Assembly (NCBI GenBank): GCA_030156435.1
Contig: JASGMM010000009.1
Span: 1-40,447, forward strand
Direction of reading: 5' to 3'
DNA: 40,447 bases
DNA from: Clostridiales bacterium
Lineage (GTDB): Bacteria > Bacillota > Clostridia > Mahellales > Mahellaceae
Position 1 is the stretch's first letter, and every line of letters starts with the position of its first letter. This document shows positions 28,669 through 33,400 of the stretch, one piece after another. Under the pieces are notes generated by a model. That model was not told the DNA's origin, ran no database searches, and was given only the letters and a program-made list of their open reading frames with translations. Position numbers and translations under genes: made by a program.

Positions 28669-29232
28669 TCAGCCTTGCATCTGCTTAGCCAAAAAGTCTG
28701 CCGCAGACCGCGCCACTTTGATGTCCGACTCTCCGATAACTGTATTCGGTTCTTTGGACAATAGTATGACCGCTCCTACTCCTTTGCCGTCAAACGGCGT
28801 GACGATGGGAACGATAAGCTCAGCTGTATATTTAGCCTCATCATCATCGGCAACGATGCTGCAAGGTTTCCTATCAGTATTCTTATCAGCTATAAAGATT
28901 TCTTTACCAGTTATTACTTGCTCCAACTCACTGCTGATACGTTTATCTTGAAGATCCTTTTTTATGGCAGCACCTGATACGGCTATTATGTTATCTTTAT
29001 CAGCTATGCACACTATATACCCCAATATCTGAGAGATCGTATCGGCATATTCTTTGGCGAAATCATTTAATTCGCCTATAAACGAATACTTTCTCAGAAT
29101 CACCCCGCCTTCTTTATCGGTGAAAATCTCCAGCGGATCGCCTTCTCGTATCCTCAAAGTCCTACGTATCTCCTTAGGTATAACTACCCTGCCCAGGTCG
29201 TCTATACGTCTAACAATACCTGTAGCCTTCAT
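28669..29232 (-). CDS. spoVT: SpoVT, forespore transcriptional regulator
   Basis: A 187-residue protein with an N-terminal AbrB-type swapped-hairpin DNA-binding domain (MKATGIVRRIDDLGRVVIPK, TLRIREGDPLEIF) and a C-terminal GAF-like domain from about residue 55 (CIADKDNIIAVSGAA, KYTAELIVPIVTPFDGKGVG). SpoVT tunes sigma-G genes late in the forespore. The ATG at 29230-29232 has the perfect site AAGGAGG. That site and the first two bases of AUG are one arm of a 16-bp inverted repeat; a sigma-G-like promoter lies between the arms. Confidence 0.96.
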   Translation of the reverse strand: MKATGIVRRIDDLGRVVIPKEIRRTLRIREGDPLEIFTDKEGGVILRKYSFIGELNDFAKEYADTISQILGYIVCIADKDNIIAVSGAAIKKDLQDKRISSELEQVITGKEIFIADKNTDRKPCSIVADDDEAKYTAELIVPIVTPFDGKGVGAVILLSKEPNTVIGESDIKVARSAADFLAKQMQG

Positions 29233-29357
29233 ATATAAGCCTCCTTAATCTGTATTGTTTTACAAAACCATCCTTACCGCATTTATTATCTTACCAATGG
29301 GCAAGTTTTATTCACTATTTTTCACCAATGATACACAGACCAAGGAGGCTTATATAT
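29231..29357 (-). promoter_or_regulatory. Inverted repeat sequestering the spoVT ribosome-binding site
   Basis: Plus-strand positions 29231-29246 (ATATATAAGCCTCCTT) and 29342-29357 are perfect 16-bp complements, separated by 95 nt. In minus-strand RNA the upstream arm, touching the prsA stop codon, pairs with AAGGAGG through the AU of the spoVT start codon. Only a transcript reading in from prsA contains both arms. Confidence 0.75.
29284..29313 (-). promoter_or_regulatory. Sigma-G-like promoter of spoVT
   Basis: On the minus strand GAATA (29309-29313) and GATAATA (29284-29290) are 18 bp apart. They match the sigma-G consensus (gHATR, spacer near 18, CATnnTA) at all -35 positions and six of seven -10 positions. 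In B. subtilis spoVT is sigma-G dependent. Transcription would start near 29277, past the anti-Shine-Dalgarno arm. Confidence 0.55.
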
Positions 29358-30409
29358 TATTTATAATTTTTCTCGTATTTCTTTATATCCGATCCTTTTT
29401 TCCATTCCTCTATAAGTGCTGTTATCTTATCATTCTTCTTCTGTTGTAGTAACGTATCGTGTATCTCCTGTTTCTTCTCTTCAAACGTGTGAACTTTTGA
29501 AGGTATCTTTTCTTCCAATTTGATTATATGGTACCCATAGGACGTTTGGACAAGGCCGCTTATATCGCCCTTATTCTTTAATGCAAACGAGGCTTCTATA
29601 AAAGCCGGTTCTATTTGATCTTCGCGCGAAAATGTAAGCGTGCCGCCTTGATCCTTTGTACCTGCATCGTCCGAATACTGCTTAACCAGCTCAGCAAAAT
29701 CATCCCCGGCTTTGGCTTTAGCCAGAACCTGTTCGGCCTCGGGCTTTATCTTATCGTACTCCGCCTTTTTAGTGGCCTCATCGGCTGAATACTTGTCTTC
29801 AGGAATGCTTATCAATATGTGGCTCACTGTTACCATCTCTGGAACGGTAAACTCGGTATCTTTGTTCTCGTCATAATACTTTTTTACCTCGTCGTCAGTC
29901 ACTGTAACATCGGCCGTTAGCCCTTCGAACAGTTTCTGCTGCACAGCATCCTCCTGCAGCAATTGCTCGAATTCCGTCTCGGTCATCTGCTGCTGTTTAA
30001 GCATATCGGCAAAAGCTTCTTCGCCGTATGCATCCTTGTACTGCTGCAGCGTGTCTTTAATCTGCTGCTTATCATCATCAGTAAGAACGATGTTATTTTT
30101 CTTTACTTGTTCATCTATAAGTTTCTGTTCTATAAGCCATTCTATTATATCTTCTTTGGTTTGTGCCAACATGTCAGCATAATCAGCGCCAGTTTCCAAT
30201 ACTTCTTTGGTTATACCGTACTGCTGTTCCATAGTACTTACAAATATGTCGTATTGCTCCATATAATCAGCTTTGAGTATCTTATCGCCGTTGACCTCTG
30301 CTACTGGCAGTTGTTTTTCTTTTTCTGGATCCACTGTTACCAGCGAACAGCCTGCAAAAATAAAAATAGCTACCATTGCCAGCGCGGTCATCCTTACAAA
30401 ACGTTTCAT
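29357..30409 (-). CDS. prsA: PrsA/SurA-type peptidyl-prolyl isomerase lipoprotein
   Basis: A 350-residue secreted foldase. The signal peptide ends FIFAGC with the lipidated Cys21. A SurA_N-like helical region follows, then a parvulin PpiC domain at about 195-300 (EMVTVSHILISIPED, AELVKQYSDDAGTKDQGGTL, QTSYGYHIIKLEE), then a helical tail. It would fold exported proteins at the outer face of the membrane. The ATG has GGGAGGAGATAAATAAT. It follows mfd by 47 bp. Confidence 0.93.
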   Translation of the reverse strand: MKRFVRMTALAMVAIFIFAGCSLVTVDPEKEKQLPVAEVNGDKILKADYMEQYDIFVSTMEQQYGITKEVLETGADYADMLAQTKEDIIEWLIEQKLIDEQVKKNNIVLTDDDKQQIKDTLQQYKDAYGEEAFADMLKQQQMTETEFEQLLQEDAVQQKLFEGLTADVTVTDDEVKKYYDENKDTEFTVPEMVTVSHILISIPEDKYSADEATKKAEYDKIKPEAEQVLAKAKAGDDFAELVKQYSDDAGTKDQGGTLTFSREDQIEPAFIEASFALKNKGDISGLVQTSYGYHIIKLEEKIPSKVHTFEEKKQEIHDTLLQQKKNDKITALIEEWKKGSDIKKYEKNYK

Positions 30410-30456
30410 TATTATTTATCTCCTCCCATTTGATAAGGCTACATAATTATTATAAC

Positions 30457-33400
30457 TTAACACGCCACCGCTTGTAAACCTATAGTTTTCTCTAGTAATT
30501 CCTGTATATCCTTTAATATACCCTCAGAGGTCTCATTGCCGATTTTGAAATAAAATGACGGTTGATCAGTAGCCGCAAATCTAACGCGGCCTTTATATTC
30601 ATCCATAACCCTTATAAGGCCGCTTAGGTCGACATCTTTATCGTTTTTAAGCATAAAAACGATATCAGTGCCTTTTTGTTCGATAGATACAATACCTATC
30701 TTCTTGGATAATAGTTTTATATGCATTATCGACAATAGATTCCTGACGCTCTGCGGTATATCGCCAAACCTGTCTTCTATCTCTTCCTCCACATCATATT
30801 CCTCTTCTATGTCGCTTATGGACATTATACGCTTATATATCTCTATGCGTTGTGCTTCTGATGGTACATAATCATCCGGTATATAAGCATCCAGCTTTAT
30901 TTCTATAGACGTGTCCGTCTCTTCTTCAGGAGTCTCTCCTTTTAGCTGAGATATGGCCTCTTCTAAGAGCTTGCAGTACATGTCGTATCCGACAGCCGCC
31001 ATATGGCCATGTTGTTCGGCTCCCAGCAGATTACCGGCACCTCTTATCTCAAGATCTCGCAAAGCTATCTTAAACCCGGAACCGAATTCGGTAAACTCCG
31101 TAATAGCATGCAAACGTTTTTCGGCTTCTTCGGTCAATACACGGTCTTTCTTATAAGTAAAATACGCATACGCTAGCCTGTTGCTGCGCCCCACCCTTCC
31201 GCGCAATTGATACAGTTGCGCTAATCCGAAATGATCGGCATCGTAGACTATAAGGGTATTGACATTGGGTATATCCAAACCCGTCTCTATTATAGTGGTG
31301 CAGAGCAGCACGTCATAATATCCATCCATAAAATCCATCATAACGCGCTCCAGCTTATCATCCCCCATACGTCCATGAGCAACGGCTATACGGGCTTCAG
31401 GAACCAGCTCCTGTAAATGCATAGCCATGACATCTATGGAATTGATTCTATTATATACGAAATATACCTGCCCTCCTCTGCCAAGCTCTTTTAATATAGC
31501 ATCCCTTATAATATTTTCGTCATATTCCACAACATAAGTCTGCACAGGGTATCTATCTTCCGGAGGCGTTTCTATTATGCTTATATCCCTTATACCGGAT
31601 AATGACATGTGCAGTGTCCTTGGTATAGGTGTAGCAGTAAGCGTGAGCACGTCTACATTGTTTTTAAATCTCTTTATGGCTTCTTTATGGCTTACCCCAA
31701 ACCTCTGTTCCTCATCGACTATAAGAAGTCCTAAATCGTGGAATTTAACATTGCTGCTCAGCAAAGCATGAGTTCCTATTATTATATCGATATCGCCGCT
31801 TTTAAGCCCCTTTATTATATCCTTCTGTTCCTGAGCGCTTCTAAATCGGCTTATAACATCCACCTTTATAGGAAAACCAGCCAATCTATTGGTAAAGGTA
31901 TTGTAATGTTGTTGGGCTAAGACCGTTGTAGGCACTAATACGGCCACCTGCTTGCCATCCATTACAGCCTTAAAAGCTGCTCTTAACGCAACTTCAGTCT
32001 TACCGTAACCGACATCACCGCACAGCAGTCTGTCCATAGGTTTATCGCTTTCCATATCGGCCTTTATCTCTTCTATAGCCTGTAACTGATCAGGCGTTTC
32101 CTGATATGGAAACGATTCCTCCAGTTGAGCCTGCCAAACAGTATCAGGGCTAAATGCATGGCCCTTAGTGGTATATCGCGAGGCGTACAGCTTCAATAAC
32201 TCGCCAGCCATTTCCCTAACCGATTCTCTTACCTTAGCCTTGGTCTTGGACCATTCGCTGCCGCCCAGTTTGGATAACCTGGGCGATGCTCCATCTCCGC
32301 CGATATAACGCTGCACCAACGACATTCGATCGGTGGGCACATACAGATTATCGCCATCAGCATAGCGTATAAAGAGATAATCCCTCGATTTACCTTCCAC
32401 CGTAAGTTTTTTGATGCCCATGTATTGGCCTATCCCATAATTTTCATGGACCACATAATCGCCTATATTGAGATCCGAAAATGCCGTTACCCTCTGGCCC
32501 GCTTTCCGGGCTTTAACCTTCGAGCGCCGCCTTTGCATGCCGAACAGCTCTTGATCCGTAAGTATCACGCATTTAATATCTGGCCATTCAGTACCACTGC
32601 TCAACGGCATATCTATTATACATATCTGCCCCGGTCGCATATCGATATCCAGACGCCTCGTGAACCATGCTTCTATGCCGCTTTGTTGAAGCATATCCTG
32701 GATGCGCAGCCCTCTGTTATCGCTCAAAGTCGCTATTATTATAGTATACCCAGCAGACTTCCACTGGCGCAACTCATCGACTATAATATCCATATTCCCC
32801 TGGAAAGACGGTATCTTTTTAGCGTCTATTTTTATAGACGGTTTCGCGCCAGCTTGATGAAATGTTTCCAACATAACAGTGCGGTATCTATTCAAGCACG
32901 AACACAATGCGTCATAATCGCTTAGCAAATAAGCTTGCGAAGGCAATACCTGTCCTTTAATAAGTAGAGCCTTAAACACCTGCTCAAATTCTTCATGAAG
33001 CGTATGGTTTCTTTGTCTTATACGCTCCTCTTCTTCCATAAAAAACAATGTTCCGCTAGGCATATAATCTAATAAGCTAGCCGCTTTATTGTAAAAAAAC
33101 GGCATGTATCGCTCTACGTTCTCAAATCGGGCGTTTTGGCTTAGCAGTTCAATATCACCGCCCATCTGATCGTTGCCATTTATGCGTTCAAATTCCGAAC
33201 GCATAGCTTTAGCTGCTCTATCGGCTGTACCGCTGTCATATACCAGTTCCTTTACAGGCGATATTACGGCTTTGTCCACTTTATCAGTGGAACGCTGTGT
33301 ATCGGCATCAAACCTTCTGATAGAATCCACTTCGTCGTCGAAAAATTCTATCCGGTATGCCTCTTCACCGACGATAGGATAAAAATCAACTATATCCCCT

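Follow-up and report, generated by a model that had tools for sequence, protein, structure and literature searches.

A putative translational insulator around the forespore promoter of spoVT in Clostridia

The question raised by the spoVT locus of a Mahellaceae bacterium (Clostridiales bacterium, assembly GCA_030156435.1) is how a forespore gene might be kept from being translated when it lies downstream of a housekeeping gene with no recognisable terminator in between. The stretch of DNA analysed, hereafter the window, comprises 40,447 nucleotides (nt) of contig JASGMM010000009.1 (positions 1 to 40,447), in which mfd, prsA, spoVT and spoVB follow one another on the minus strand and 124 bases separate the prsA stop codon from the spoVT start. 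A pattern scan found no terminator between prsA and spoVT, which would leave spoVT open to co-directional transcription from upstream, and a sigma-A-like promoter before prsA is a possible source of read-through RNA. The gap contains an inverted repeat that flanks a predicted forespore promoter (Table 1). We propose, with a probability of roughly 0.77, that the upstream arm of this repeat acts as a translational insulator of spoVT against read-through.

According to this mechanism, polymerase reading through from prsA would copy the upstream arm, which would then pair with the spoVT Shine-Dalgarno (SD) sequence and start codon and block ribosome loading. Polymerase carrying sigma-F or sigma-G would start between the arms, and the resulting forespore mRNA, without the upstream arm, would be translated. 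The arm would take the place of a terminator after prsA at the level of protein output, within DNA that also holds the promoter. We infer the read-through, the activity of the promoter and the difference in translation from the anatomy of the locus, a predicted difference in folding between the two RNAs, the recurrence of such arms across the class, their specificity for the SD of their own gene and a trade-off with terminators. A first-pass annotation of this DNA had put forward the same mechanism, which appears well supported by anatomy and comparison.

Anatomy and predicted folding of the prsA–spoVT gap

The two arms are 23 nt each and lie 81 nt apart. The perfect 16-bp inverted repeat described in the first-pass annotation, linking the prsA stop to the SD and start codon of spoVT, is indeed present over the 16 bases adjoining these two sites, and the helix proves to be longer: the two DNA mismatches between the arms become G-U pairs in the spoVT mRNA, extending the 16 perfect pairs to a predicted 25 uninterrupted RNA pairs, so that in the long RNA the SD and start codon are predicted to pair with the upstream arm. 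Folding, which had been suggested as a check, gave a minimum free energy of -59.8 kcal/mol, as compared with -33.6 +/- 3.7 kcal/mol for 200 shuffles, none of which was as low (z -7.1). Pairing of the SD with upstream DNA had a z of -9.5 to -9.7 against shuffles, the top value among 171 spoVT loci. Since the spoVT orthologue also ranks first of 1130 genes scored in a sister genome (see below), a chance origin of the repeat is excluded. An intrinsic terminator was considered at this site and rejected, because a short-loop GC stem followed by a T run is lacking: the loop measures 81 bases, no T run follows and the pattern scan was negative.

The whole predicted promoter, GAATA-18-GATAATA (29313-29284), sits between the arms, where a sigma-G-like promoter had been expected, and would place the transcript start near 29276. 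Because of this location, the forespore transcript should be without the upstream arm, as had also been anticipated. At five other loci (L131, L132, L134, L145 and L095) a promoter is found at about equal distance from the start codon, providing positional homologues in other families, and 163 of 184 clostridial spoVT loci have a forespore promoter whose spacer measures 17 or 18 bases, with a median position of -46 for the end of the -10 element. This comparison argues that the predicted promoter of the window is real. The survey is consistent with the C. difficile literature, in which spoVT is controlled by sigma-F/G (PMC7438776, PMC3789822).

The two RNAs are predicted to differ sharply in the accessibility of the translation start. 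At 37 °C the mean unpaired probability from the SD to the AUG is 0.06 in the read-through RNA versus 0.67 in the short leader, and the difference persists in predictions at 50 °C (0.07 versus 0.70) and 60 °C (0.09 versus 0.75).

Table 1. Features of the spoVT locus and its upstream region, in window coordinates
Feature	Position	Strand	Basis or remark
Upstream anti-SD arm, ATATATAAGCCTCCTTGGTCTGT	29335..29357	-	Starts at the third base of the prsA stop codon
Downstream arm, ACAGATTAAGGAGGCTTATATAT	29231..29253	-	Holds the SD of spoVT plus two bases of its start codon; ends on the T of ATG
spoVT SD, AAGGAGG	29240..29246	-	Inside the downstream arm
-35 element of predicted forespore (sigma-F/G) promoter, GAATA (TGAATA including the preceding base)	29309..29313	-	Cross-family comparison
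-10 element of the same promoter, GATAATA, 18-base spacer	29284..29290	-	Cross-family comparison
spoVT, forespore transcription regulator, 187 amino acids	28669..29232	-	Open reading frame and profile matches
prsA-type peptidylprolyl isomerase gene, co-directional, 5′ of spoVT, no terminator found after it	29357..30409	-	
Sigma-A-like promoter, TTTACA-18-TATAAT (11/12 consensus bases), 5′ of prsA	30449..30478	-	

The assignment of SpoVT rests on a TIGR02851 score of 233.8 bits, slightly below the cut-off of 235.9, together with a Pfam SpoVT_C match above its cut-off. The identity of prsA was derived from PPIC-type isomerase domains.

Anti-Shine-Dalgarno arms in relatives and across Clostridia

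For a comparison at genus level, the locus was set against its counterparts in two other genomes of the order (G001 and G002), making three near-identical species in all. The core of the helix, GCCTCCTTGGTC/GATTAAGGAGGC, is identical in both sister species. The whole prsA–spoVT gap is almost invariant across the three species, so conservation within the genus is no evidence for pairing and offers no covariation of the arms, which had been proposed as a check. Across the class, the pairs flanking the SD core vary widely in type among 33 non-redundant strong loci. Between the arms, the sequence (29253-29335 in the window, leader included; L083 and L084 in the sisters) is more conserved than promoter and pairing appear to require.

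As a genomic background, 1130 genes in 1.6 Mb of stretches from G001 were scored for pairing between the SD and upstream sequence. Below the spoVT orthologue at rank 1, the top-ranked genes include sigG and those for a DacD/DacF-type carboxypeptidase, a GerA-family protein, a PBP2/SpoVD-like protein, dipicolinate synthase A and YunB, the last at 1204758, where a candidate assignment as SpoIIR was rejected. Scores of z < -3 were obtained for 4 of 47 genes with a good forespore-type promoter versus 13 of 834 without one (p=0.01). In the GerA-like, DacD/DacF-like, PBP2/SpoVD-like and dipicolinate synthase A genes of G001 (L212, L214, L224 and L206) an anti-SD arm lies over a sporulation-type promoter. 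Elsewhere in this genome (G001:C1 ~1331819, minus strand), the SD of a gene of unnamed function with no obvious sporulation role (GAGGTTACAAACG) is complementary to the -35 region of an upstream sigma-A-like promoter.

At the level of the class, 187 spoVT starts were gathered, partly from 80 named contigs and partly by a draw across the class. About one sixth of the spoVT loci scored (29 of 171) pair their SD region with upstream DNA at z < -3, and 51 do so at z < -2. As controls, the genes preceding spoVT reached z < -3 in only 1 of 63 cases (p=0.0008); among other genes at the same loci, this level was reached by five spoVB genes, all from a single Clostridium group, and by none of the remaining 136. 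Swapping in the SDs of other spoVT loci weakens the pairing: a gene's own SD is favoured by a mean residual of -1.85 kcal/mol (permutation s.d. 0.17), and 0 of 20,000 permutations came close to this value. The arms of many families differ in sequence, each fitting the SD of its own gene, as illustrated by the pairs CACACCCTCCTTTGT/ACAAGGAGGGATGTGTG (L092) and TTCGTGCCTCCTTTTG/TGAAAGGAGGCAC (L094), both at loci that lack a terminator and are preceded by a co-directional gene.

The position of the arm relative to the promoter follows two patterns. In loci resembling the window it lies 5′ of the -35 element, and in Lachnospiraceae and others it falls within the promoter spacer, for example GTATA-AAATTCCTCCATTTACA-AATACTA with the SD partner GCAAATGGAGGAATTTTA (L069). 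A transcript from the promoter itself should lack the arm in either position. Using windows defined by the promoter (a fixed upstream window diluted the signal), we found that the non-transcribed DNA is complementary above all to windows -25 to +2, around the SD and start, where t reaches -5.5, and far less so to the upstream leader and the coding region. No pairing with the own SD was detected in the transcribed leader (+0.05 +/- 0.25). Clostridial sigG genes from 30 genomes (L280-L309) present a comparable picture, with z < -3 in 13 of them; in most of these the arm overlaps the forespore promoter, often at its spacer, as in L297 (GTATAAAAATGACCTCCATGGCAATAATG then TTGCCGGGAGGTTTTTTATATG).

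The spoVB start directly 3′ of spoVT in the Clostridium group mentioned above (L004, L012, L024, L030 and L036) has its own anti-SD arm ~55 bases upstream (z -5.0 to -5.6), which possibly shields a mother-cell gene from read-through out of forespore spoVT. This arm was found in none of 16 further loci from a motif search, indicating that it is lineage-limited.

If the arm is a guard against read-through, a stronger arm would be expected where read-through is likely. Where a co-directional gene precedes spoVT and no intrinsic terminator intervenes, the residual averages -3.48 and falls below -5 in 32 of 87 loci; where an upstream intrinsic terminator is present, it averages -0.11 and falls below -5 in 3 of 34 (p=0.002). 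Comparison of loci exposed to read-through with all unexposed loci gave p=0.0025, or p=0.005 after removal of similar sequences; all three p values are approximate, given the simple pattern used to call terminators and the common ancestry of the loci. Among the loci nearest to the window by SpoVT sequence, a strong arm is present in 15 of 30 without a terminator and in 1 of 17 with one. The arm is apparently exchangeable with a terminator.

Counter-evidence and alternative explanations

Several observations weigh against an insulator. The outer pairs of the helix are broken by 1-3 changes in G001 and G002, and an arm is absent from many clostridial spoVT genes. Strict ungapped Watson-Crick scoring places 19 of 184 spoVT but only 1 of 30 sigG loci above the 99% null. 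The asymmetry between G-U and A-C mismatches, which is weakly RNA-sense in sigG, carries no RNA-specific signal in spoVT (gain of -1.95 sense and -2.07 antisense). Moreover, a ribosome on the prsA stop codon that masks 12 nt of the arm, about half of it, raises the predicted SD accessibility to 0.43, and the same masking in a sister species raises it to 0.67. Active translation of prsA may therefore make the block on spoVT leaky, because the terminating ribosome would cover part of the arm.

The helix might instead serve mainly as a substrate for RNase III, such that read-through RNA is cut and its spoVT portion separated or destroyed, with the translation block being secondary. Twenty-five uninterrupted RNA pairs are long enough for this enzyme, and cleavage would fit the trade-off with terminators and yield an identical comparative pattern. 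The helices of relatives, however, often comprise 11-18 pairs with bulges and are still centred on the SD and start, a placement that cleavage alone does not need, and we regard this explanation as unlikely.

The lack of an RNA-specific signal in the asymmetry test would equally suit a repeat that acts as DNA, with two half sites for a regulator flanking the promoter; SpoVT itself, which has an AbrB-type DNA-binding domain, could be that regulator. Against this, the arm sequences vary by gene (spoVT, sigG, GerA-like and DacF-like) and by lineage, each fitting its own SD, and the trade-off with terminators finds no interpretation in DNA binding, making a regulator site very improbable. We give just as little credence to a conditional switch in which ribosomes terminating on prsA, a ligand or temperature open the helix, permitting translation of spoVT in some vegetative state. 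The arm does start on the prsA stop codon, where the masking described above exposes the SD, and the intergenic sequence is near-invariant in three species beyond what pairing explains; but no Rfam family matches anywhere in the window, the helix is predicted to be stable up to 60 °C and in relatives the arm is found within the promoter spacer and not immediately at an upstream stop codon. Finally, a remnant of a prsA terminator or a functionless chance repeat, suggested by the location of the repeat directly 3′ of prsA, is scarcely credible given the long loop, the missing T run, the absence of a terminator call at the site, the shuffle score, the first rank among G001 genes and the recurrence in relatives.

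Precedents and significance

The translational insulator that we favour for spoVT has a precedent in B. subtilis sigG (spoIIIG), to which the first-pass annotation had correctly pointed. PMC5942855, which refers to Sun et al. (1991) and to its ref. 52, relates that a hairpin of >20 pairs was proposed to block read-through RNA from spoIIG and that RNA from the gene's own forespore promoter, PsigG, is unable to form it. The locus studied here differs in that the gene is spoVT and the upstream gene is the housekeeping gene prsA, and the clostridial arm differs in that it is often embedded in the spacer of the promoter and shows a trade-off with terminators. A second hairpin in the sigG leader (Mearls et al., 2018; PMC5942855) likewise occludes the SD of a forespore gene, but it consists of 5 bp within sigG's own transcript and exerts a constant dampening, whereas the spoVT leader is devoid of pairing with its own SD. 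Late genes of phage T4 such as I-TevI, as well as segB, follow the same principle: the SD is hidden by a hairpin in early or middle read-through RNA, and a late promoter between the arms yields RNA without the hairpin (PMC2988022). These systems are non-homologous and concern phage timing rather than cell fate. We found no report of a spoVT version of this device in the open-access literature, which was the scope of our search. Relative to the known logic, the gene, the recurrence across Clostridia and the location of the arm in or beside promoter DNA are new.

A broader proposal, to which we attach somewhat less than an even chance, is that anti-SD arms are common among the sporulation genes of both compartments in Clostridia. 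Located in or just 5′ of the sporulation promoter, such an arm would give promoter DNA a second role as a translational insulator, exchangeable with a terminator in evolution, and only RNA initiated by the sigma factor of the right cell type would be translatable. The clear cases are spoVT and sigG, and candidates are the GerA-like, DacF-like, PBP2/SpoVD-like and DpaA genes of G001 and spoVB in some Clostridium. If this holds true, the cell-type specificity of spore genes would be enforced at translation too, by means of DNA within the promoter, which would explain how sporulation genes can be placed 3′ of housekeeping genes with no terminator between them. Complementarity between promoter spacer and SD would also serve as a sequence rule by which to search for other genes that need to be silenced against leaky transcription.
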